Assembly: GCA_902776365.1 (NCBI GenBank) | Contig: CACYPU010000004.1 | Coordinates: forward strand, 1-64,000 | Length of the DNA: 64,000 bases | Source: an uncultured Bacteroidota bacterium | GTDB taxonomy: Bacteria > Bacteroidota > Bacteroidia > Bacteroidales > P3 | Reading direction: 5' to 3' | In this document: positions 7,529-43,723 of the stretch, piece after piece | How the letters are laid out: each line of letters starts with the position of its first letter | Position numbering within the stretch: the first letter of the stretch is position 1 | The notes under the pieces: generated by a model | What the model was told of the DNA's origin: nothing | The model's database searches: none | What the model saw: only the letters and a program-made list of their open reading frames with translations | Program-made: the position numbers and the translations under genes

Positions 7529-7559
7529 CAAATTTACGAAATAATTTTTACATGGCAAA
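7529..7559 (-). promoter_or_regulatory. Promoter of the DRTGG-hydrogenase cassette
   Basis: Reading the minus strand: -33 box TTTG (7556-7559) inside TTTTGCCATGT, 19 bp, then -7 box TAAATTTG (7529-7536) followed by CA. The gene starts at 7504, giving a leader of about 20 nt. Confidence 0.7.
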
Positions 7560-7599: not shown

Positions 7600-7705
7600 A
7601 GTGCATTTGTACGATTGTTGTACGATACTTGTACGATACTTGTACGATGATTTATCGGACAACTATCGGACAACTATCGTACAAATAACGTACAAGGGAT
7701 TGATT
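7600..7705. repeat. 89-bp mirrored iteron element, copy 1
   Basis: The core at 7607-7695 has four left 11-bp units (7607, 7618, 7629, 7640; type TTGTACGATAC), a GATTT centre (7649-7653), then four right units (7654, 7665, 7676, 7687; type ATCGTACAAAT or ATCGGACAACT). Right units are reverse complements of left units, so the whole can fold as one long imperfect hairpin. Flanks AGTGCAY and GGATTRATT are shared with the second copy at 29373-29478. It lies between the phnW terminator and the DRTGG cassette promoter. Confidence 0.85.
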
Positions 7706-27965: not shown

Positions 27966-29294
27966 TTATTGCACGAGCTCGCCGAGGAGTGTCGCCTGGG
28001 TGCAGGCGTTGACCTTGACGCGGCGGTAAGAGCCCAACTCGGCATCGCCCCTGTCGAACACCAGCACCTTGTTCTGGCTGTTGCGGCCGAAGAGCTGCTG
28101 CTTGGAGCGGTGGCTCTCGCCCTCGACGAGGACCTCGTATTCGCGCCCCACCTCAAGCTGGTTGTTCTCCAGAGCTATCTCGCCCTGCAGGGCGATAATC
28201 TCGTTCAGGCGGCGCTTCTTGACCTCCTCGGGGATGTCGTCGGCCAGATGCTTCCAGGCATAGGTGCCCTCGCGGAGCGAATACATGAACATGTAGGCGT
28301 AGTCGTAGCGCACGCGGCGGAAGAGGTCGAGCGTGGCTTGGTGGTCCTCTTCTGTCTCGGTGCTGAAGCCGGCGATGACGTCGGTGGTGATGGAGCAGTC
28401 GGGCAGGTAGCGACGGATGGCGTCGACGCGGTCGAGGTACCACTCGACGGTGTACTTGCGGTTCATCAGTTTGAGCATGCGGTTGCTGCCACTCTGCACA
28501 GGCAGATGGATGCAGCGGCAGATGTTGGGATGTGCGGCCATCACCTCCAGCAGGCGGTCGCTGAGGTCCTTGGGATGCGACGTGGCAAAGCGCACCCGCA
28601 AGGCAGGGTCGATGCTCGCCACCCTCTCCATCAGCTCCGGAAAACCACAGCTATTGTCCTGCACTCCCCAAGAATAACTATTCACATTCTGTCCCAGCAA
28701 CGTCACCTCGCGGTAGCCCTGCTCGAAGAGGGTGCGGGCCTCGTGCACGATGGTCTCGGGGTCGCGCGAGCGCTCGCGGCCGCGCGTATAGGGCACCACA
28801 CAGTAGGCGCAGTAGTTCTGACAGCCACGCATGATGCTGATATAGGCGGAGATGCCGTTACCAGAAATGCGCACGGGCTCGATGTCGGCATAGGTCTCCG
28901 TCTCGCTCAGCTCCACCGCCGCAAGGCTGCCGTCGCCATTCGTCCTCACCCCTCTCATCAGCTCGGGAAGCTTCCTATAGGCATCCGGCCCGCAGACGAA
29001 GCTGACGTTGTCCTCTTCGGCCATGAGGCGGCTCTGAAGGCGCTCCGCCATACATCCAAGGACGCCCACGCGCAGCTGGTGGCGCCTGTTCTGCAGCGCC
29101 CGCAGCTCGCGCACGCGGTGGCGCACCCTCTGCTCAGCATTGTCGCGGATGGCGCAGGTGTTGATAAGGACGAAATCGGCCTCCTCGGCACCCTCGCAAA
29201 CAGCATATCCAGCCCTCGTCAGGATGGCCGCTATCACGTCGCTGTCGGCGAAATTCATCTGACAACCATAGGTTTCTATATATACTTTCTCCAT
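27966..29294 (-). CDS. miaB: tRNA-2-methylthio-N6-dimethylallyladenosine synthase MiaB
   Basis: A 442-residue radical-SAM methylthiotransferase that modifies A37 of UNN-reading tRNAs. The N-terminal UPF0004 domain begins VYIETYGCQMNFADSDV, and other cluster Cys lie in NTCAIRDNAE and GCMAERL. The radical SAM motif is CQNYCAYC followed by VVPYTRGRERSR. The C-terminal TRAM domain is at about 375-440 (YEVLVEGESHRSKQQLFGR). The length is normal. It diverges from the plug-protein gene; the 89-bp iteron element lies between them. Confidence 0.95.
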   Translation of the reverse strand: MEKVYIETYGCQMNFADSDVIAAILTRAGYAVCEGAEEADFVLINTCAIRDNAEQRVRHRVRELRALQNRRHQLRVGVLGCMAERLQSRLMAEEDNVSFVCGPDAYRKLPELMRGVRTNGDGSLAAVELSETETYADIEPVRISGNGISAYISIMRGCQNYCAYCVVPYTRGRERSRDPETIVHEARTLFEQGYREVTLLGQNVNSYSWGVQDNSCGFPELMERVASIDPALRVRFATSHPKDLSDRLLEVMAAHPNICRCIHLPVQSGSNRMLKLMNRKYTVEWYLDRVDAIRRYLPDCSITTDVIAGFSTETEEDHQATLDLFRRVRYDYAYMFMYSLREGTYAWKHLADDIPEEVKKRRLNEIIALQGEIALENNQLEVGREYEVLVEGESHRSKQQLFGRNSQNKVLVFDRGDAELGSYRRVKVNACTQATLLGELVQ

Positions 29295-29317: not shown

Positions 29318-29325
29318 CAAAAATA
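29318..29325 (-). promoter_or_regulatory. -7 element of miaB
   Basis: Minus strand TATTTTTG followed by CA, 24 bp upstream of ATG 29294. No TTTG is seen at the usual distance. Confidence 0.5.
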
Positions 29326-29372: not shown

Positions 29373-29478
29373 AGTGCACTTGTCCGTTCGTTGTACGATA
29401 CTTGTACGATACTTGTACGATGATTTATCGTACAAGTATCGTACAAATAACGTACAAATAACGTACAACGGATTAATT
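29373..29478. repeat. 89-bp mirrored iteron element, copy 2
   Basis: The core at 29380-29468 has left units at 29380, 29391, 29402 and 29413 (TTGTACGATAC type), a GATTT centre (29422-29426) and right units at 29427, 29438, 29449 and 29460 (ATCGTACAAGT to AACGTACAAAT). The two inner units on each side form a perfect 20-bp stem (29402-29421 with 29427-29446). It has the same length, unit count, centre and flanks as copy 1. It lies between divergent miaB and the plug gene. Confidence 0.88.
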
Positions 29479-29523: not shown

Positions 29524-29531
29524 TATCTTTG
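29524..29531 (+). promoter_or_regulatory. -7 element directly before the plug gene
   Basis: CGTATCTTTGCA with the -7 box at 29524-29531 and the ATG at 29536, so transcription should begin at about the start codon. A small hairpin (TTGGGG 29488-29493 with CCCCAA 29501-29506) lies just upstream. No TTTG is at the standard spacing. Confidence 0.6.
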
Positions 29532-31942: not shown

Positions 31943-34900
31943 TTAGCGGAGAATCATTTTCTTCATCAGACGCTGGCCTTCGACCTCGATGCCATAGTAG
32001 TAGATGCCCGAGGAGTAGGCCTCCATGTCGATGGAGATGGTCTGCTCGCCGGCATCATAGTAACGTGAGAAGCTGTTGACGATGTGGCCCATGGCGTCGA
32101 CGATGAAGAAGCGCACATTGGCGGACTCGGGCAGCGAGAAGGGGATGGTGGTGCGGCCGGAGAAGGGGTTGGGATAGTTCTGCTCGAGGGAGATGAGCGG
32201 GCTCTCGACCGTGGGAACACCTTCGACGTGGTTGACCACTTCGATGAGGTTGGTCTCGTTGTTGTCGCCGTTGCCGTCGCCGCCGAGGGTCACCCTACCC
32301 GTACCGCTGTAGGAGCGGGTGAAGCTCTTGGGTATGTGGCTGTCGAACTCGACATGAATGGTCTGTCCGGGTTCAATGCGGCGAGCGACAGAACCGACCA
32401 CCTGGTTGCCGTTAACATTAGCTCTCACAGACAGTGGCACACTGGGGAGGAGCGACTTGTTACCGTTGTTGCGGAGAACCAGGAAGACGCGGCAGTCGGG
32501 TTGGGCCGTTTCCTCGACGATAACCTTCACAGCCTCGATGTCGAGGAAGTACCTGGCAGTGGCAGTAGTAGTGTCGTTGGCGGGGTCGTTGTCACCATCC
32601 ATGTGTACGAATCCCGTGATATTGTGATAGCCGGCGGGTCGCGTAGGCAGCGTCACATCGAACATGTGATAGCCTGTGGAGAGTGCCGGTAGAGGCAGAT
32701 CGCGGCTATAGACATCACGATAGATGGTGGAGGTGTCGTTGTCGATGTAGAAGCCCACCTCGAAGCCATTGGCACCACGGGCACCACGGTTCTCGATGAC
32801 GAGCTGGAATCGCACCTCGGTGAATCCGGAGCTATCGACAATCATGGCACCAGCGGCAATGTCGTTGACCGAGGAGATGCCCTCGACACGCTTGCTGATG
32901 GTGTCGTTGTAGATATAATCGTTACTGTCGCTCTTGATGATGCCGACAATCTTCATAATACCCATGTTGGCCCTGATCTTCTGGTGGAAGGTGTAGTTGA
33001 AATACTGCATGGAAGGCAGGGGTTCTCCCATGAGTTCTACAAAGTCGATATCCTCGTCGACACGGTCCATACCATTGACGATATAGGAGGCTCTGGCGTG
33101 ATAGATGGGGTTGACACCGAAGTTGCGGATGCGCATGGTGACTTGGACGTTGGTGTCGCCAGCGATGACGCTGTTGAGGGGGTAGATGAAGGAGTGGGCA
33201 CTAATGTCGTTGGCGAGGGGAGCGAGCGGGAAGGACATCGAGAGGCTGTCGTTGTCGCGGAAGATGTCGCCATCGAGTTTGGTGAAGGTATGGATGTAGA
33301 AGGTGTCGGGGAAGTCGCTGGTGACAAGGAAGGGCGAAGTGAGTGCTATGGTGTCTTCGGCTCCCGGGGCGATGTGGCATGTGGCGCTGGAGAGCTTGGG
33401 CATGTAGGTGCCATAGTGAGTGTAGCCGATGGTGATTTCATTGATGGTGTCGGTACCATAGTTATGGACAACCACCTCGGGATAGATTGTCTGGCCGTAG
33501 GAAGGTGCTGTGGGCTGGGTGATGGCCACGACACCGGCATCGTGGTTGATGGGGGCGCGACCGATGCAGAAGTCATCGACAGCACAACCCTCGCCATAAG
33601 CGCTGGCGGACGAGGAGCCTATCGGCGTGGCATAGACCAGGCGGAACTGGAGGTACTGCGGGAAGTCGCCGGAGATGCGATTGCCGTTAGTCGGTATCCA
33701 ATAGCGGCCATAGGCGGTACCGGGAGTGGTATTGTCGAAGACCCGGTCGTCGGTGTTGTTGTACCATACCATGGCGGAATCCCAGTCGAGTTTAACCCAC
33801 TTGCTGTCGGTGTTGTAGAACTCGACATGCAGCGAACTGCCGTTGGTGAGGTTGCGACGGAGGAAGAACGAGATGGTGTCGGCCTTGATTTGTGCGATGT
33901 TGATGATGGGGCTGTAGAGGTAGCTCACATTGCCACGCGTACCCGTAGAAATCACCGAATGGAGGTCGGTGACCCAAGCGGTGGAGTCGGAGTAGGCGGC
34001 ATTGAGTTTGGCCTTGGTGGGTGTGCCACGCTCCCAGTAGTTGTGCGAGTAGGCATTGTATCCGGTGGGAGCATACCATCTGTTCTCGCCCTCGAAGTCG
34101 TCGTTGAGGGTAAGGGTGATGATGTGGAAGCGGTTGTATTCAAAGAGGAGCGTGTTGTTTTCGGTAATGGTGTCCTGCGGGTCCTCATAAACGATAGTCA
34201 ACGAAGTCACACCGTAGTTGAAAGCATAAGGCGGCAGGCTGACTACAGCACTGGTGCCGGGTGCGAGGGTACCATTGTAGGTCACGGTGCCAGTGGTAGA
34301 GCCGGCGCCATGTTCGTTGATTAAGTTATAGCGGAACTGCGGCATCGACACCGGCGAGGCGCCCTTGTTGGCGATGCGGAAGCGGACAACTTTCTCAATG
34401 CCGTCGCGGATGAGGTAGCTGCGGGGAGCGTCAATCTGTGTGACAGCGATGTCATGGTCGGCAGTCTCCGAGTCGACAAAGAGGAGGAAGTCGAGAGTAT
34501 GACCGTTTTTGTTCGATGGAATACCCGTGCTGGGAGAAGTGGTTTCGGTGTTGAATTCGTCGTAATTACCCACCGCGATACGCATTCTCATGTAACCATA
34601 GGAGGCGTTGGGAGAAATGGTGACCTGTGAGGAGAAGAGTTCCTCGTCATAGAAGGAGGCGGCGCTGACGACCTCTTCGTCGGGAGAGAAGATGCCGTCA
34701 CGGTTGAAGTCGATGAAGGCCCAAATCTTGCAACGGCTGGTACGCTGGGAGGCGTCGAGCGGCGTCACCTGGACGAGGAGGGTATCGACAGTGCCACGGG
34801 TGACATGCAAGACGGGATAGTCGGGGTTGTTGTAGGAGGCCAGGTCGGTGAGGCCACGGCCCAGCGGAGGCAGGTCGAAGTCAATCTCGTTGTACGAGAC

Positions 34901-37900
34901 CCTCGTCACATCGAAGGTGGGATGGCTGGAGCCCTGCGGAGAATAGGTGTTCTCGGCCAGGGAATGGAAGAGGTGGGGAGTGCGCAGGGTGTCGTTGCGA
35001 CGAGTGCCGTCGGTGGCCAGGTCGGTCCAGATATTGAGCGAGTAGTTCTGGTTGCTGATGGGGGTAGTGATGTTGAGCAACTCATCGAAGGTGTAGGTGT
35101 AGTCCTGTCCGGCAGGGATGGTGGCAGTGCAGATTTCCGTCACCGTCTGCACAATGGTATTACCTTTCTTGAGCTGGTAGGTGATGGGGACGTTGGTTTG
35201 CGAGGCGGTGCCGAAGTTGGAGATAATGATGCGCACGGTGTCATTCTCCATGTAGACTCTGTGGCCCAGCGGTGCAAGGACCTGCTTGATGGCCATGTCG
35301 TTGGGAATGCGAGGTGCCACATGTACCGTGACTTCGGAGAAGTGGCTGGCGCAGTTATGGTCAGAGAGGCAGTTGAGATAGTAGGTGGAGTCGTGGAAAT
35401 ACTGCGGAGTATTGTTCCAAACGCGCGAGAGGTTGTAGTTGTTGCCTGTGAAGAAGGGAGCCTGCGTGGAGTCGCGATACCAACGGATGGGTCGCGTGTT
35501 GATTTGCGAGGCACGCACCGCACCCCAGGTGCCATAGGCCAGCGTGGTGTCGTATCCAATCGGGGGATCCGGGGTGTAGTAGGAGTTAATGACGCTGCCG
35601 TTGGTGGTGTCGTTGGCGGGCGACACATCGAGGTCGTGGTGGCACCATCCGCGAATCTGAATCTTCAGGTTTGTGAAGGTGCCGGTGGGATAGAGGTTGA
35701 CAGGCGTGGGCAGGCTCAGGAGTGTCGTCTGGTTGCACAAGAGGTTGGATGTCAGAGTGACACTATCCTCGACAATGGTAGGCATGGTGTAGATGGTCGT
35801 GCCGGCCGGCTGGGTGATGGTGGGTTTGAAGCCAATCTTCAATCTGGTTCCGGCAGGAATGTCCTTGAATCCGACATTCTGCACCGTGAGCTGGAGGGTG
35901 GTGTTCTCCCTATAGCAGCCCTCGGTCGAAGCCGTGGAGGTTCCCGTAGCCTTGAAGTTGTATGCCGGGGCGAGGAAGACCGGGGCAAGACGGTCGAGGC
36001 TCTCGGGCGAGCAGTCGTCATTGCTGTTATTGTAAACGATGACCACATGCACGTTATGTCTGTTGATAATGCCAAGCGAAGTGGGCATCATCACCGAGTC
36101 GATTTTCATCTGCGAAGGATTGAAGGTGCCGAGGCTGCGGTTGGGCGTCCTGGTGGTTGACTCGTAGCCTTCGAGGTAGGCATACCACTGCACGTTGGGC
36201 TCAACGGCGAGACCGTTGTTATAGAAGTGAGCCACAATGCTGATGGAGTCGCCCTCGATGTTCGGCGGCATCTTGTTGGGATAGGAGAAGCTGGTGTCAG
36301 CAGGAACAAACGGCTTGGTAACTTCGACGACCGACATGTCGTGCGTGCAGGAAGACATCTCGTCGGCACCGATGGTGGGGGCGGGAATCTGGCTGCGGAT
36401 GATGTTGTCGATATCGTCGGTGACATCGGTGGTGTACTGGGCCAGACCGACGAAATTGGTCATGGCCAGATGCAAGTCGCTGTCGTCGATAAAGTAGGGA
36501 CGCTCGAACACCGAGTTGGCATCGTCGGAGTTGGCAGCCTGCAGTTCTGCCATCGAGGCGCGGTACTGCTTCCAGAAGAGGGGGCGCTCACTGAGCGTGT
36601 AGTAGGCATTGAAGTTGGAGAGGCTCACCGTGTTGAGTTCCGTGACATAGTAGGCATAGCCCTTCATGAAATTCGAGAAGATATTGTTCATCACGTGGAT
36701 GCTACTCACCGTGGCACCGGTGAAGAAGGAGCAAGTGCCCTCGTTGAACGTCGCCGAGGCGGCAACGGTGCCGCACTGCAGACGGACGGAATTGTAGTAC
36801 ACATTGAGGTTGGTGGAGGTGCTGTCAATCCAGATGCCCGCGGGTTTCAATCCCGACAGGTCAGCAACACCGGTACCGGAGCAGCCAATCATATTGTTGA
36901 CCACATAGCCCGGATCGGCGGAGGTGCAGTTGACGTTCTCCAACTGAATACCTATCTTTCCACCTTTCTTATTATCGTTAAGGTAGATGTGGTTCTTCTC
37001 CACAAGGAAGGTTCCAGCCATCTGTGCGAGATACAGACCCTTCAGGGAGCGGTTGTCCAGGTTGTTCACCGTCACTCCGGATTTGATGTAGTTCTTACTG
37101 ATGCTGACATTGGTCACCGCACGCAGGTTCACACCCACCTTCCAGAAGTGCTGGAATACATTATTATGTATTACTATATTATTATAGCCTTCGGTGCCGA
37201 GTGTACGGAGGGAGAAGAAGCCGCTGTCGACAACATTGTTCGTGAAGGTGAGGTTGCTGATGTTGCTACCCAGCAACACACACGAGGCGTTGGCATTGTT
37301 GATGGTGCCTTTCACCCGGATGGTGCAGCTGTCGATAACGATATTTGCACCTTTCTGCATCACCAGCGCATGACCAAAGTTGACATTGTTCGCCGGACGG
37401 GAGACAATCTGGATATTCCTCAGCGTCACATTCGAAGCGCTGTCGAGGAAGAAGACATAGTTGTTGGCCTGGCTCGTCGCTGCCCTGAGAATGACGCTGT
37501 CGCCGACACCGGTAAAGCCGATGGTGTTGGTCTGCGACGATCCCGGGATGGTATTCAATACCACTTGCTCATTGTAGATTGCATTCGACACATTGAACAT
37601 CACAGGGCCTTCCACACCCACAGCATTCAAAGTATCGATAGCCTCGCCGAACGAATGGTAATCGGCTCCCGTGGGAGCAATGGTGTAGGTACCTCCACAG
37701 AAACGCACCACAAAACCTCGGCGTATCGTGTCGTTGCTGGAAATCAAATCGCCCGTAGCGGCGGCCACAGCCGTCAGCATGTGGCGTCCAGGCGCCATTC
37801 TTTGCTTCAGCAACAACGTGTTGTTGAGAACGCCCGGTACCATCGTCGTGGTAACCTCCACACTGTCCACAGGATCGTTGTCGAGAATGTAGTATATCTT

Positions 37901-40900
37901 CATCGTGTCCACATCGAGAGCGCCTTGGTTCCGCAAATCGACATGGAACGAGATGCTGTCGCACGAGTTATAGTCTATCGTATCCATACCCTCGGGCCAC
38001 ATAATGGCCATATCCACGGCCGGAATATTGATAAGATTCACCGTGTAGGGGGTCATCGAGCTTTGGCAGCCGTATGCCGTGGAGAAGAAGCGTATATTGG
38101 GACGGTTGCCACCCTTGGTTCCCGAACCCACATAATTCATTGTCGAGGGCGAAAGGTCGCTGTCGCCACTCTTGTACAGCGTCGTGTTGGCCTTCGCCGT
38201 ATATCCGCTCTTCACACCCGAGGTGACCTTGGGGTTGATATAATGTACCAACTGCACCACCACACTGGAAACACCATCCCAGAAGAACGGAGTGTCGAAA
38301 TGCAGCGGCACCCAGTTGTTGCAATCGGTGTTGTAAATCACCAACGGCGCACTGTGGAACACCTGCGTAGTGGTCTTCCAATCCGACGCACTGGCGAAAA
38401 TGGTGTCGCTAGTCAATCCCATCGACACATAATAGTCGTTGAACGAGATGGAGGCCGGGGCGCTGTTCCCAACGAACTGCCTCAGGTCGAAAGCAATCGA
38501 GTCGATATACCCGCGCTCCATACCCATCGCATGCAATTCGCTGGGCGAATAGATAAACTGCTGCTTGGCATACTTGCTGCCAGGCTGGTACGGCGACGGG
38601 AAGGCTGTGTTGCCATTGGTAGAGGTTCCCGTTCCTACCTGTCCCCAATGGGCAAACGTGGCCATCTGGCCCATACCACGGGTACCTCCCATATACAATA
38701 TCTCACTTATTCCCGTGTAACCCGTGTCAACGACACTGCCGTTATAGTCATACCATACAGGAACCAGTCCCGCCATCGGCGCCACCGTCACAGTGTCCCG
38801 TGTCGCATACTCCACTGTCCGCGCGTCCAAAGCCGCCGGAGCTGCAGGCGTATAGAGTGACAGCACACTCGTGCTACTCGTGTCGTTGGTGTGCACGGGG
38901 TCGCTCGCCACCGAGTCGGCCCACACCCTCACCGTCACCAGCGAATCCTGCGCGAAAGCCAGATTCAATGGCGTCGAGAAGGTGAAGTTCATCATTCCGT
39001 TGCTCGCCAGCGTATCGGTAACATTCTCCGTCACCGTGTCACCGCCAGCGGTGTAGTTCATCACCAGACCCGTCACAGGCTGGATACCATAGTTGCGCAC
39101 TTTCACCGTCACATTCTCCATTCCCAGACCGCAGCTCGTGGCAGGCAGCTGGGGAGCACTCACATCGATATCCACCGTCGGCGGCGCTATCATGATTACC
39201 TGCGCTGTTGCAAACTCACCCTCGCAGCCATTGTCCACATATCTTATCCAACTCGGGTCATTCGCATTCAGCATCATCGGGTTGTCGTTCGTCGCAATGC
39301 GCCAGTCGTTCAGATTACCCACAAAATTCACCCTCACGATACCTGCCGACGTATTGTAGCCCGTCATATTCACTCCACCTCCCGTCCACACATACGACGG
39401 CGCACCGTGGTTGCTCACCGAGTTCAACACCACGGCATCCTCTATCACCCCCTTGTGCTTGTACAGGAAAGCAATATTACTATTGTACGACACCGTCAAT
39501 CCACTCAGCGGGGTACCCGTGTGAATCGTATTCACCGGACTCACCGACGTACCCGTCGCACCCTGCAGGATGAGGCTCTGCCCGGGCTCTATAAAGATAC
39601 TGTCAGTGAAATGATACACTTTGTCGTTAAGGTTGTTCGTCGGGCTCACCGTCACAATCGAGTCATCGTAGAGACAAGCCCTCTCGTCGCCGATATTCGT
39701 CAACTGGATAGCCACCTTGCGGTTCGAGACCAGCCAGTAGGGCGCGTTCGGCGTCTCGCCTGTCGTAGCATTCGCTCCCGTTCCTCCGCGCTTAATCTCC
39801 AACTGAGTAATCCTCACTATCGGCTGCGCACGGCGCTGACGGAAATAGAACGTCGTGTCCTGACGCAGCGTATCCGTCGTCAGCGTCGGACCCACAAAGA
39901 ACGGGTCGGCATCCAGCGTGTCGTGGTACCAATAAAGCGTCGACGGACGTTGCGGCGCTGCCGTGTGCGTATACACAGTCCACGTGTCCACACCCGACGT
40001 CGGCGTCACCGCAGCCGTCGTCGCATACGGTATAATCACATTCACATCCGACGGCGCAGCAGGGTGATACTTGCTCACCACGGTAAACACATTCGTGTCG
40101 TTCGTCGCGTTCGGGTCCGCGGCAAAATTTGTCCACACCCTCACCGTATAAGTCACATCGTTCGTACCGCTTGGCGGCAGCGACAGCATCGCTCCCGTAT
40201 GGATGATCGCAGTATTGTCGGCTGGCACAGTATCCGTCACCGCAACAGTGTGCACAGCGGTATTGTTCACCTTGTACGACACCGTCAACCCACTGCCCGT
40301 ATACACACTCGTGCCATTATTCCTAATCCTCAGCACCAGCTCCGTCTGCGCCGGCATATAACACGTCACAGCAAGCGGATTCAGCATCGCCTCGGGCTCG
40401 AAATCGTAGCCCAGCGACACAAACTCGAACGCACCCGGGCAGGTCGCCGAATCACTACGTACACTGTCGAAAATATCTGTCGTCACCGTCGTCAGCGGAA
40501 TACCTATACCCTTCACCTGACGGTTGAACGTACGCAAATCCACCAGCGAACCATTCAAGAAATTGGGATTCACCTTCACCGACAGCGAGTCCGCAGGCTC
40601 CGCCGTCATCCAGTCCGTCATGTCGAAATAACGGCCCGCACCTTTCTTATTCATCGTCGTGCCCATCGAATAATACACATTGTGTCCCACCTCGTTCGTA
40701 ACATCGCCGGCGGGAATATAATTCAGTGCATAATTCAGATTGTCCAGACACACCACCACATTGTTCAGGAAGCGGCTGTTCGTCAGCGTGCCGCCGCCGA
40801 ACGTCGCTGCAGCGATATTGCTACGCGTCGGCGCTACCATCTTCACCGAGTTATACACCACATCGGCATAATTCGCCTGGATTATGTTCAGCGGCGAACG

Positions 40901-43723
40901 CATCAGCGACGCAGTACCGTTATCCTCGCTCACCACCATATTGTTCGCTATGACAAAACGGTTCGTCGCCGTGCCCACGGCCATGCTCACACCCATTGCT
41001 CCGGCTCCGTGGCTCGTGTAAATCTTGTTCGACACAATCCTCGAATTGCCATAGCACTCGCTCACCAGCAACACATAGTTCGTATTGCTCAGCACATCGT
41101 ACATCTCGTTCTTCTCCACAACGGCATTCGTCTGGTTCTGCACACTCACTGCATTCTCATACTGATTATAGAACACGCTACCCCTCACCGTATTGTTCTG
41201 CGAACGCGCATCCGATGCCATACCCTTTATCTCCACACCTATCTTGCCGCCCCTGAACGTGCAGCCCTCCACAGTGATATTGTCGGCATAACCACTGCTA
41301 ATCAGCGAATTGATGCGCAATGTCGCCACAGGGTCCACCACCTCGTCCACAAACTCACAACCCTCGAAACGGCAATTCAACGAGCTCATGCCCAACCTCA
41401 CCATACTCGGGTACGAAATACCGGCCACAGCCTCGTGACGCACAAACTTGATATTGCGGAACACCACATTCGTGGCCTGTTCCATATTCACAATCACACT
41501 CTCCCCACTCGCCGGCTCCGGCGCCATTACCATCGACACATTGTTCGTCAGCGGCTTGAACACCACATAATTACTCGTCGATGAACCCGGAATCACCGGT
41601 ATCGTGCACGGCGGATACTCTCCCGGTGCCAGTTTCACCACCAAACTGTCGTCAACGCCGCAACTGCTCAGCGCAAACAGGAACTGGTCCATCGTCGCAA
41701 AATTCGCTCCGTTGCCGCCAATCTGACGCACACCGTGCATCGGACCGTCGCACACTACGAACGGCGAGTAAATCGTATCGTTATACGGCTCGTGGTCGCG
41801 CCAGCGCTGGCCTCCTGACGTCAGCGAGTCCTCCACCCACACTCTCAACGTATGGTAGCCCGCCGCCAGCGGCACATTCGCCGCTATCGTCACCACCTGC
41901 GTCGCACCCCCTGCCAAGTTACCGTTCCAATCATAATAGCCATTCACACTGCCGTCGATACTGTAACTGATGCGGATGGCATTCGCCGTCAACGCACCCC
42001 AGTTCTTCAACCTCACCTGCACTCCGTGGTTGCCCGTCGTCATCGGCACACTCCCACTCGGCGCCACCAAGCCATACTCCGACGACGAAACCACAGTGTC
42101 AAATCCCATATCGTATAGCAACGGCAGATTCTTTCTCGCCGTTAACACAAACGCCGGACGTTTGGCGACGCACATATCAGCCGTCGCCCACTCCGTGTTG
42201 GTATACGGGTCTGCACCCATACTCGCATCGCCTCCCATAAGCCTGTAAATCGACTTCTTGTTCGGATGCGACGGCACAGCACGCACTTTCGTCGGGGTCT
42301 GATAGTTCGACGTACCACGGTAAATCACCTGCACCACCAAATCCTTGCCCGCATAGTAAAACGAATCCTGCAATCCTATCGTGTACGTCTGACCCTGGTT
42401 CATCTCAGGAATCGTCAACGTCGAATCATACACCACATGCATATACGACGTCGTGAAATAGTAATTGCTCATAAGCGACGTATCCACCTCGTAATTCGTA
42501 CCCACATTCTTCATCCTAATCTGCAGGTTCGGTCGCGACACCGTCGCCGTATACCAGTCCGTTGTCAACCGCATCGCCGTAATCGTACCCGGTCCATACC
42601 CGGCCTCGGCCATCATCGCCGAGTCATACACCCACTCGCTGCGACCCACAGCCTGAATGTAGAACGGTACCTCCGTAATACCCTGTCCGGGCGTACCCGT
42701 GAAACCGGGCGTCAGAATACCTGGCTGCTCCACGCCCCTTACACACCTGTACTCCTGCCACGACCCTATCGACGCAGGGAATCTGTTCTCGTTCGCATTG
42801 CTCGTCGCATCCTTTATCACACAATAAAATCTCATCAGCGTGTCATACCCGAAGAATGGAATCTCTCCACGGTAACGGTTCCCGCTCACGTGGCTCAGAT
42901 TCATCTTCACCGGCGCTCCATTGGTACCCACACGGTAAAACAGATACACCGAATCCGGATTGATACCCGCCGACAACACCGTCGACGCATTCAACTCTAT
43001 CCGCGCTCCACGGCTGCTCGGGTGATAGTAACCGTCCGGATACACAGCCATCTTCAGCGTCGGCTTCACCATCATCTCCGAGCTCGACGTCACACGGATA
43101 TTGTCAAAACGCCACTTACCCATGGCCGTCGTACCAGCCTTTTGCCTGATAACAAACTTTATCAGCACCTTCCTCTCCTCAGGCGCCAAGCCCGAATGAA
43201 GCACATTGTTCAGGTCGAAGCGCTCCCGCTTCCACATATCATTGCTCGTCGTCGTCGTATTCCACTCGTCATACGTACGGTTGTTGAACGCCGAAAGCGA
43301 CTGGAAATTCCTGCTGCCGCCCTCCGTCATGTTGTAGTACGACTGACCCATCAGTGTCCACGACCCATCGCCCTGGTTCGCACGTTTCCAATAGAGCTTG
43401 CCCATCAACCTGTCTTCCGGATTTATCGGAATCTGGCAAATATGGTCAAACTCCAACGTGATGTACCTCAACGTCAGGTCATTCGTAAAATCCAACGTAT
43501 CCAGGAAAATCGTCACATCTTCCGTCGACTGCGTCACCTCCAACGAACGGCTACCCGCCGAATGATACGCCGTCGAGTAACTCATACTCGTCGACGGATT
43601 CGTCGTCACTCGCGACACCTCACCACTCTCGAATCCCTGGTACAAAATTTCCTGTACCTGCCCCCGTGCCACAAGCCCGGAAAACACAAAAAAGACTCCT
43701 GTCAGCAAAAATCTCAGTTTCAT
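31943..43723 (-). CDS. Giant T9SS surface protein, 3,926 residues
   Basis: A single uninterrupted 11.8-kb gene. The signal peptide is MKLRFLLTGVFFVFSGLVARG. By approximate residue: 25-215 jelly-roll-like domain (LTLRYITLEFDHICQIP); 345-520 adhesion-like module; 545-655 CARDB-like; 660-1030 parallel beta-helix (VEGCTFRGGKIGVEIKG, VVEKNEMYDVLSN); 1300-1430 lamin-tail-like; 1675-1900 second adhesion-like module; 2010-2420 second beta-helix (NNIVIHNNVFQHFWKVGVN); several CARDB-like repeats; 2970-3085 GEVED domain (WAFIDFNRDGIFSPDEEV); 3205-3390 MAM/jelly-roll-like; two more CARDB repeats; 3845-3926 sorting domain (LEQNYPNPFSGRTTIPFS, ending GQRLMKKMILR). It is a T9SS type-A substrate, probably a surface adhesin or glycan-binding fibre. 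Codon use differs between its two halves. Confidence 0.93.
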   Translation of the reverse strand: MKLRFLLTGVFFVFSGLVARGQVQEILYQGFESGEVSRVTTNPSTSMSYSTAYHSAGSRSLEVTQSTEDVTIFLDTLDFTNDLTLRYITLEFDHICQIPINPEDRLMGKLYWKRANQGDGSWTLMGQSYYNMTEGGSRNFQSLSAFNNRTYDEWNTTTTSNDMWKRERFDLNNVLHSGLAPEERKVLIKFVIRQKAGTTAMGKWRFDNIRVTSSSEMMVKPTLKMAVYPDGYYHPSSRGARIELNASTVLSAGINPDSVYLFYRVGTNGAPVKMNLSHVSGNRYRGEIPFFGYDTLMRFYCVIKDATSNANENRFPASIGSWQEYRCVRGVEQPGILTPGFTGTPGQGITEVPFYIQAVGRSEWVYDSAMMAEAGYGPGTITAMRLTTDWYTATVSRPNLQIRMKNVGTNYEVDTSLMSNYYFTTSYMHVVYDSTLTIPEMNQGQTYTIGLQDSFYYAGKDLVVQVIYRGTSNYQTPTKVRAVPSHPNKKSIYRLMGGDASMGADPYTNTEWATADMCVAKRPAFVLTARKNLPLLYDMGFDTVVSSSEYGLVAPSGSVPMTTGNHGVQVRLKNWGALTANAIRISYSIDGSVNGYYDWNGNLAGGATQVVTIAANVPLAAGYHTLRVWVEDSLTSGGQRWRDHEPYNDTIYSPFVVCDGPMHGVRQIGGNGANFATMDQFLFALSSCGVDDSLVVKLAPGEYPPCTIPVIPGSSTSNYVVFKPLTNNVSMVMAPEPASGESVIVNMEQATNVVFRNIKFVRHEAVAGISYPSMVRLGMSSLNCRFEGCEFVDEVVDPVATLRINSLISSGYADNITVEGCTFRGGKIGVEIKGMASDARSQNNTVRGSVFYNQYENAVSVQNQTNAVVEKNEMYDVLSNTNYVLLVSECYGNSRIVSNKIYTSHGAGAMGVSMAVGTATNRFVIANNMVVSEDNGTASLMRSPLNIIQANYADVVYNSVKMVAPTRSNIAAATFGGGTLTNSRFLNNVVVCLDNLNYALNYIPAGDVTNEVGHNVYYSMGTTMNKKGAGRYFDMTDWMTAEPADSLSVKVNPNFLNGSLVDLRTFNRQVKGIGIPLTTVTTDIFDSVRSDSATCPGAFEFVSLGYDFEPEAMLNPLAVTCYMPAQTELVLRIRNNGTSVYTGSGLTVSYKVNNTAVHTVAVTDTVPADNTAIIHTGAMLSLPPSGTNDVTYTVRVWTNFAADPNATNDTNVFTVVSKYHPAAPSDVNVIIPYATTAAVTPTSGVDTWTVYTHTAAPQRPSTLYWYHDTLDADPFFVGPTLTTDTLRQDTTFYFRQRRAQPIVRITQLEIKRGGTGANATTGETPNAPYWLVSNRKVAIQLTNIGDERACLYDDSIVTVSPTNNLNDKVYHFTDSIFIEPGQSLILQGATGTSVSPVNTIHTGTPLSGLTVSYNSNIAFLYKHKGVIEDAVVLNSVSNHGAPSYVWTGGGVNMTGYNTSAGIVRVNFVGNLNDWRIATNDNPMMLNANDPSWIRYVDNGCEGEFATAQVIMIAPPTVDIDVSAPQLPATSCGLGMENVTVKVRNYGIQPVTGLVMNYTAGGDTVTENVTDTLASNGMMNFTFSTPLNLAFAQDSLVTVRVWADSVASDPVHTNDTSSTSVLSLYTPAAPAALDARTVEYATRDTVTVAPMAGLVPVWYDYNGSVVDTGYTGISEILYMGGTRGMGQMATFAHWGQVGTGTSTNGNTAFPSPYQPGSKYAKQQFIYSPSELHAMGMERGYIDSIAFDLRQFVGNSAPASISFNDYYVSMGLTSDTIFASASDWKTTTQVFHSAPLVIYNTDCNNWVPLHFDTPFFWDGVSSVVVQLVHYINPKVTSGVKSGYTAKANTTLYKSGDSDLSPSTMNYVGSGTKGGNRPNIRFFSTAYGCQSSMTPYTVNLINIPAVDMAIMWPEGMDTIDYNSCDSISFHVDLRNQGALDVDTMKIYYILDNDPVDSVEVTTTMVPGVLNNTLLLKQRMAPGRHMLTAVAAATGDLISSNDTIRRGFVVRFCGGTYTIAPTGADYHSFGEAIDTLNAVGVEGPVMFNVSNAIYNEQVVLNTIPGSSQTNTIGFTGVGDSVILRAATSQANNYVFFLDSASNVTLRNIQIVSRPANNVNFGHALVMQKGANIVIDSCTIRVKGTINNANASCVLLGSNISNLTFTNNVVDSGFFSLRTLGTEGYNNIVIHNNVFQHFWKVGVNLRAVTNVSISKNYIKSGVTVNNLDNRSLKGLYLAQMAGTFLVEKNHIYLNDNKKGGKIGIQLENVNCTSADPGYVVNNMIGCSGTGVADLSGLKPAGIWIDSTSTNLNVYYNSVRLQCGTVAASATFNEGTCSFFTGATVSSIHVMNNIFSNFMKGYAYYVTELNTVSLSNFNAYYTLSERPLFWKQYRASMAELQAANSDDANSVFERPYFIDDSDLHLAMTNFVGLAQYTTDVTDDIDNIIRSQIPAPTIGADEMSSCTHDMSVVEVTKPFVPADTSFSYPNKMPPNIEGDSISIVAHFYNNGLAVEPNVQWYAYLEGYESTTRTPNRSLGTFNPSQMKIDSVMMPTSLGIINRHNVHVVIVYNNSNDDCSPESLDRLAPVFLAPAYNFKATGTSTASTEGCYRENTTLQLTVQNVGFKDIPAGTRLKIGFKPTITQPAGTTIYTMPTIVEDSVTLTSNLLCNQTTLLSLPTPVNLYPTGTFTNLKIQIRGWCHHDLDVSPANDTTNGSVINSYYTPDPPIGYDTTLAYGTWGAVRASQINTRPIRWYRDSTQAPFFTGNNYNLSRVWNNTPQYFHDSTYYLNCLSDHNCASHFSEVTVHVAPRIPNDMAIKQVLAPLGHRVYMENDTVRIIISNFGTASQTNVPITYQLKKGNTIVQTVTEICTATIPAGQDYTYTFDELLNITTPISNQNYSLNIWTDLATDGTRRNDTLRTPHLFHSLAENTYSPQGSSHPTFDVTRVSYNEIDFDLPPLGRGLTDLASYNNPDYPVLHVTRGTVDTLLVQVTPLDASQRTSRCKIWAFIDFNRDGIFSPDEEVVSAASFYDEELFSSQVTISPNASYGYMRMRIAVGNYDEFNTETTSPSTGIPSNKNGHTLDFLLFVDSETADHDIAVTQIDAPRSYLIRDGIEKVVRFRIANKGASPVSMPQFRYNLINEHGAGSTTGTVTYNGTLAPGTSAVVSLPPYAFNYGVTSLTIVYEDPQDTITENNTLLFEYNRFHIITLTLNDDFEGENRWYAPTGYNAYSHNYWERGTPTKAKLNAAYSDSTAWVTDLHSVISTGTRGNVSYLYSPIINIAQIKADTISFFLRRNLTNGSSLHVEFYNTDSKWVKLDWDSAMVWYNNTDDRVFDNTTPGTAYGRYWIPTNGNRISGDFPQYLQFRLVYATPIGSSSASAYGEGCAVDDFCIGRAPINHDAGVVAITQPTAPSYGQTIYPEVVVHNYGTDTINEITIGYTHYGTYMPKLSSATCHIAPGAEDTIALTSPFLVTSDFPDTFYIHTFTKLDGDIFRDNDSLSMSFPLAPLANDISAHSFIYPLNSVIAGDTNVQVTMRIRNFGVNPIYHARASYIVNGMDRVDEDIDFVELMGEPLPSMQYFNYTFHQKIRANMGIMKIVGIIKSDSNDYIYNDTISKRVEGISSVNDIAAGAMIVDSSGFTEVRFQLVIENRGARGANGFEVGFYIDNDTSTIYRDVYSRDLPLPALSTGYHMFDVTLPTRPAGYHNITGFVHMDGDNDPANDTTTATARYFLDIEAVKVIVEETAQPDCRVFLVLRNNGNKSLLPSVPLSVRANVNGNQVVGSVARRIEPGQTIHVEFDSHIPKSFTRSYSGTGRVTLGGDGNGDNNETNLIEVVNHVEGVPTVESPLISLEQNYPNPFSGRTTIPFSLPESANVRFFIVDAMGHIVNSFSRYYDAGEQTISIDMEAYSSGIYYYGIEVEGQRLMKKMILR

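Follow-up and report, generated by a model that had tools for sequence, protein, structure and literature searches.

Described repeat systems and the array element

MITEs, ERIC sequences and similar elements are palindromes of approximately 90-130 bp that lie between genes and consist of imperfect inverted repeats, and the boxes of OmpR/PhoB-type regulators are tandem 11-bp direct repeats that are read by protomers in a row. Two further systems join repeats to a protein gene. REPIN-RAYT has palindromic repeats outside genes, with a distinct repeat family beside each resident protein gene and several distinct protein genes in one genome (PMC3116915). ParR-parC has rows of repeats (11 bp in plasmid R1) that are bound by a small protein and are situated upstream of the par genes (PMC9426499).

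The element considered here was found in a 64,000-nt stretch of DNA (the window) from a Bacteroidales genome of 2.23 Mb (G000, the source genome), and is an array of four units, a 5-nt centre and four reverse-complement units, with an 11-bp period. One of its 22 copies in the source genome lies in the leader of a gene for a 233-aa protein, here called X. Like MITEs and ERIC sequences, the arrays are imperfect inverted repeats of similar size between genes, but no convincing target-site duplication, the mark of the MITE of a DDE transposon, was found at them, and they have a constant 11-bp period, a word that changes with the species and a linked protein gene. The 11-bp direct repeats in a row recall the OmpR/PhoB boxes, yet the 49 X proteins searched had no response-regulator match in Pfam, nor any other convincing one. 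With ParR-parC, whose adaptor is a ribbon-helix-helix protein with a ParM partner, the arrays share rows of 11-bp repeats upstream of a protein gene; however, parC consists of direct repeats on plasmids, whereas the X arrays are mirrored rows scattered over a chromosome, and X had no sequence match to any solved chain in the PDB. Structured RNAs differ in that the 22 source copies had no covariation and the window had no Rfam match. The greatest likeness is to REPIN-RAYT: an array family lies beside X (66 of 72 loci read) and is also dispersed in intergenic DNA (the 22 source copies), and several partner genes with separate families occur in one genome. The differences are that PF01797 (Y1) was absent among the Pfam matches of the 49 X members at E up to 0.1, as judged by sequence only, that the arrays are rows of four 11-bp units around a 5-nt centre rather than two spaced REPs, and that an array lies in the X leader, with unit words that follow the residues of X. 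X and its arrays would appear to work like REPIN-RAYT, but are not a member of it by the tests made.

Arrays in the source genome

The earlier note on the window, made from its letters, had described an 89-bp element present twice, and its account of the two copies was accurate. Copy 1 (7607..7695, plus strand) has a left arm of four TTGTACGAT units with an 11-bp period (7607..7648), a GATTT centre (7649..7653) and a right arm of four reverse-complement units, two of them with G for T at the variable position (7654..7695). Copy 2 (29380..29468, plus strand), also of 89 bp, has a left arm (29380..29421), a GATTT centre (29422..29426) and a right arm (29427..29468) of the same four-unit kind, and the flanks AGTGCAY and GGATTRATT are common to both. 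The count of two was correct for the window and not for the genome, in which BLAST found 22 array places, each matched on both strands, a lower bound because the assembly of 18 contigs is 89.65% complete. This is a real, symmetric, multi-copy element, and as further copies turned up both in this genome and in congeners, the note's reservation that there might be none elsewhere fell away.

The 4+5+4 build was present in all 22 copies and the GATTT centre in 19, and the array on contig C8 had a fifth left unit. The pattern TTGTACGATN{20,45}ATCGTACAA had 39 + 39 matches in the source genome, and its reversed form, used as a control, had 0 + 0. When up to two mismatches were allowed, 134 adjacent unit pairs were counted against the 132 expected from 22 complete copies, so that lone half-elements, in the part of the pair list inspected, seem rare or absent. 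All 22 copies lie between larger ORFs as called by a simple ORF caller; three are inside ORFs of 94-96 aa, which we took to be chance ORFs. (The longest ORF in the window by far, of 3926 aa, occupies 31943-43723 on the minus strand.)

Each unit consists of a 9-bp word, usually of the frame TTnnnCnnT, and two spacer bases. Over the 176 source units, positions 1, 2 and 6 were invariant and positions 3, 4, 7 and 9 constant in 174, while position 5 was A in 130, C in 44 and T in 2, and position 8 was A in 125 and T in 51. Position 5 is thus nearly always A or C and position 8 is A or T, with G at neither. Seven near-fixed positions out of nine is the pattern of a recognised motif, unlike that of neutral decay. 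The inverted symmetry extends weakly beyond the array ends, and the mean pairwise identity of the source copies, 0.88 within the array, drops to 0.48, then 0.33, then 0.30 with each 10-nt step leftwards. In the congener G071 the corresponding fall is from 0.98 to 0.77, 0.61, 0.41 and 0.30, with a tail of ~70 nt on the right side at an identity of 0.4-0.7. Based on this drop, the arrays were held constant while their surroundings diverged. In most of 20 G071 arrays (L266-L285) the right-hand tail of ~70 nt is gap-free and ends in ACCCCTCGT or GGGGGTCGT; the tails are strongly diverged between copies, the arrays there being 98% alike, and a profile of the tail had no significant relative elsewhere.

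The note's further supposition, that units spread by copying within the element, had a mixed outcome: neighbouring units were not correlated in the source genome, and the units of one element did agree in G112 (0.72 versus 0.30 by permutation, 24 elements). Its statement that no named family fits held up, with no convincing candidate from Rfam, PDB, Pfam, PHROGs, NCBIfam or PADLOC; exact-motif scans of viral contigs and genome contigs had no match, and the titles and abstracts searched, mostly outside subscription journals, yielded no description of such arrays or of X.

Protein X and its upstream array

X was reached by comparing the genes beside the copies, among which a single gene was preceded by an array in five species. 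In the source genome this gene is at C5:64045-64743 on the minus strand, outside the window. Of the 120 congeners searched, 67 had homologues, frequently more than one in a genome; the 53 congeners with no match imply that X is dispensable or was missed there. Outside the genus, X was found in 2 of 393 sampled genomes of the order, belonging to one other genus in another family, both with array-like units in front of X, and in the sample of the phylum there was one weak match (G637) among 395 genomes. None was found in viral contigs, phages or plasmids. X appears, by its sequence, to be a protein family without known function that is found almost only in one Bacteroidales genus. The source X matched no Pfam family at E up to 1, and its invariant residues held no recognised catalytic signature; a PADLOC match of one of the 49 members to AbiEi (E 6.5e-4) and single NCBIfam and PHROGs matches (E 0.004 and weaker) were taken as chance. 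The surroundings of X vary, in that only 29 of 1225 pairs of 50 loci have a neighbouring ORF in common.

The upstream array was seen at 47 of the 51 loci read first, a set to which 20 paralogues and one further locus belong, and at 19 of the 21 in the later set, which takes in both genomes of the other family; an array was counted when at least four of the six inner units lay within two mismatches of their consensus. The same test scored 2 of 500 random 440-nt windows from congeners and 0 of 48 windows downstream of X, and a scan that uses no word, only palindrome and internal period, detected arrays of period 11 at 28 of the 30 X loci read initially. Of the six loci without an array, L384 is masked by N, and L412, L414, L432 and L437 belong to a divergent X subfamily with the N-terminus TFVRxxHIxQPRRLxRKQL and no clear upstream array. 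Near two X loci there are palindromes of 8-bp units of the TGCGTTAT type (L382 at 637; L384 at 559 and 946), which are a different kind of repeat from the arrays.

Where the array is clear, its centre is 71-195 nt before the X start codon in the first set, with one at 324, and up to 306 nt before it in the later set, with one at 40. A promoter-like box, TAnnTTTG, was present upstream of the array on the gene strand at 30 of 45 X loci, versus 14 of 45 on the other strand (six of the 51 loci being left out for want of a readable or non-outlying array or for short upstream DNA), and 23 of the 30 boxes are 103-116 nt from the array centre. As none of the 45 loci had a box between the array and the start, the array sits in the leader of X.

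Changing words in related genomes

The exact source word matched in none of 40 relatives, and a lax BLAST of the 120 congeners found the same build with other words: TTGTACAAT in G124, TTGTCC(GA/AG/GC)T in G112, TTGTACAGT in G071 and TTGTTCAGT in both G117 and G058. The word changes between species while the 11-bp architecture is constant. Copy number ranged from 1 to at least 40, with at least 40 array places each in G112, G124 and G071 (46, 72 and 45 candidates at first look) and 3-4 in each of G022, G058 and G053. Three of 20 contigs fetched from G124 (L256, L258 and L259) end at an array; it is therefore probable that assemblies break at these repeats, and the real number of copies may be greater. 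The word-free scan of 30 congener stretches (~594 kb) made 16 hits, 11 of them, from nine stretches, with period 11, although the stretches were chosen with three of these (L336 at 15641, L363, and L364 at 3272) already known, and three (L327, L341 and L361) are weak. It made no hit in 10 stretches of other families and two, both of period 14, in 80 other Bacteroidales loci (695 kb). What recurs across the genus is therefore the period and the symmetry, with a word that differs. In G112 at L323 (2353) there is also a long AT-rich palindrome, which is unrelated to the arrays.

Read by eye, the dispersed word was that of a resident X array in 12 of the 13 genomes in which both were read (G000, G112, G071, G053, G117, G058, G022, G109, G108, G073, G023 and G075), a comparison that omits G002, G010 and G068 (weak elements), G081 and G092 (array-like elements and no X match) and G017, G021 and G072 (X loci outside the set read). 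For G112 the agreement covers two of three word families, the third, TTGTCCAGT, having no X array of exactly that word. The non-agreeing genome, G124, has at least 40 TTGTACAAT places and two detected X loci with other words, and one G075 element (L336 at 15641) also has other words. The source genome has four X genes, each with a different word; at least two more arrays there have units in common with the array on contig C13. A second-family array at L445 ~1430-1560 (G000:C12:110.9 kb) has arms that differ, TTCTTTGTT on the left and TTCTTCGGT on the right. The near relative G096 (96% complete) yielded only a C-terminal remnant of X and has one strong array place. The agreement in 12 of 13 genomes, the separate words of paralogues and the state of G096 suggest that X may help to spread or keep the dispersed arrays.

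Correspondence between residues of X and bases of the unit

In an alignment of X with the words, residues 39-54 change with the word. Whether residue 50 was A or S matched whether base 5 was A in 63 of the 65 cases compared (Fisher p 4e-16, a value that ignores kinship). The first set contributed 46 matches out of 47 and the later set 17 out of 18, the exceptions being L415 and L438 and this general rule having been settled with both sets in view. V at residue 50 accompanied A at base 6 in six of seven cases, L396 being the one without it. When the first-set words of the form TTGTnC were taken alone, A at base 5 went with N43 and A/S50 (6/6), C with N43 and Q50 (10/10) and T with C43 and Q50 (5/5). 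This rule, on residues 43 and 50, is the only one that was fixed ahead of the later loci, two of which have a word of this form: L427 fits the rule and L418 fails.

A tree from which residues 39-54 were left out has seven changes at residue 50, and six of seven independent pairs agree in direction, a test that is weak alone because only three independent pairs are on strongly supported branches. Over 46 proteins, word distance correlated with distance in the N-terminal part of X (Mantel r 0.53; 0.61 for residues 42-62) and, at 0.41, with that in the C-terminal part; in partial Mantel tests the first 62 residues gave 0.40 versus 0.16 for the rest. The residue-base agreement is weakened by the relatedness of the proteins and by a rule partly settled after the fact. 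The earlier note had supposed that a protein could contact every 11-bp unit; for that idea there is now a candidate, X, with a residue-base correlation, and the contact itself would be a prediction from the sequences.

A proposed mechanism and its alternatives

We consider it probable that the two arms of the element are rows of binding sites for X, that the leader array gives X control of its own expression and that the others are dispersed cognate arrays. Each 11-bp unit would hold one protomer or dimer of X, which would read it through its N-terminal part, and four units in line with four mirrored ones could seat about eight X close to the same face of the DNA, as two rows set head to head. 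By occupying the array in its own leader, often ~100 nt past the promoter box, X would probably lower its own expression. The other copies, including both in the window, would be cognate arrays kept between genes in a REPIN-like manner, with X possibly taking part in spreading or keeping them. The homogeneity of the arrays within diverged flanks suggests that they may have been converted or replaced in old sites rather than freshly inserted. No convincing target-site duplication was found at flanks of at least 4 bp in G000, G112 and G124, and an excess of flank matches in G071 (9 versus 4.5 of 20) vanished once the copies were oriented alike, so the flanks held no direct sign of copying.

A possible though less likely explanation is that the arrays form a regulon, with X as a transcription factor that acts on neighbouring promoters through the dispersed arrays. 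TAnnTTTG boxes lie 75-180 nt from the centre and are directed away from the array in 16 of the 22 source copies. In the window these boxes, all matches to the consensus only, are at 7529..7536 on the minus strand for the gene beside copy 1, 115 nt from its centre and directed away; at 29524..29531 on the plus strand for a gene beside copy 2, 100 nt from its centre and directed away; and at 29318..29325 on the minus strand for the gene at 27966-29294, 99 nt from the centre of copy 2. In addition, some intergenic intervals hold an array in more than one congener. Both flanking genes are shared at the arrays of C1:65004 (G112 and G053), C9:103231 (G022, with one flank in G053), C9:62141 (G124, with flanks of no more than 31% and 46% identity) and C1:2489 (G096). 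Four other copies (L040, L042, L044 and L049) have a single flanking gene in common. These counts exclude the locus beside X, which has an array anyway, leave out the weaker matches of L038, L045, L047, L051 and L055, and were made without a random control. At the C1:65004 locus G096 has no array, and the intergenic DNA there has diverged, so that no clean junction is seen. Yet an intergenic element that spares promoters would show the same placement; three copies (L044, L054 and L055) lie between convergent genes without such a box, which argues against a pure regulon; the neighbouring genes look unrelated by eye; and copy number is far from constant between congeners. In box placement the dispersed source copies differ from the arrays of X loci: a box 94-137 nt upstream occurs at a single source copy, consistent with that being the one before X.

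It is unlikely that X and its arrays organise the chromosome as nucleoid or segregation sites, in the way that ParR acts on parC for plasmids. The 11-bp repeats bound by ParR of plasmid R1 (PMC9426499) and a frequency of roughly one site per 100 kb (22 in 2.23 Mb) are consistent with such a role, but the spacing of the sites is irregular by eye, X resembles no solved chain in sequence and 53 of 120 congeners gave no X match.

The proposal that the arrays are ordinary MITEs or REP-type palindromes, moved by an unrelated transposase such as the product of the Y1 gene at C3:64800, with X a bystander, is more doubtful still. The source genome has one Y1_Tnp match (L316 2759-3427, G000:C3:64.8 kb; E 9.8e-8, residues 15-90), and its gene looks RAYT-like. 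That the arrays are dispersed, intergenic, palindromic and without target-site duplication would fit this proposal, as would arrays 1-2 kb from a Y1 gene at L293, L317, L318 and L320 in congeners. Against it, there is no array in 6 kb around the source Y1 gene, 19 of the 20 best Y1 loci have none within ~1.5 kb, G109 has arrays and is missing from the 73 genomes that matched Y1, and neither the arrays in front of X nor the residue-base agreement has a place in such a scheme. A Y1_Tnp/RAYT protein was rejected as the partner of the arrays, its matches in 73 of 120 congeners not being consistently near them.

The least probable is the earlier note's alternative of a long hairpin as the functional form, be it a leader hairpin, a cruciform or a single-stranded intermediate: the predicted folds are strong (z -8.8 as RNA and -7.8 as DNA), 11 bp is the turn of A-form RNA and X arrays lie in leaders, but any palindrome folds well as a single strand, outer pairs agree less often than expected, the arms agree in G112 but no more than neighbours within one arm, and in the 22 source copies paired cells were 87.6% versus 88.7% in shuffles with a covariation score not above that of shuffles, so that, with no arm-to-arm covariation at the variable positions of the source family, a hairpin is not what is conserved.

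Implications

With binding by X as the preferred explanation, we lean slightly towards the further claim that X and its arrays make up a self-maintaining pair of protein and site of a new kind, i.e., a binder that is not a recognised transposase, with a residue-to-base code, arrays in its leader and over the genome, words that drift together with the recognition residues, and paralogues whose words are kept separate. If this is true, the family would hold a natural record of how recognition between protein and DNA has evolved again and again, with dozens of X variants, each with its target word beside the gene and sometimes at tens of further places, and a recognition code that could be read from sequence. 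The persistence and co-evolution of dispersed repeats and their partner proteins would then be testable outside the RAYT family, and the arrays would provide a handle on the X family itself.
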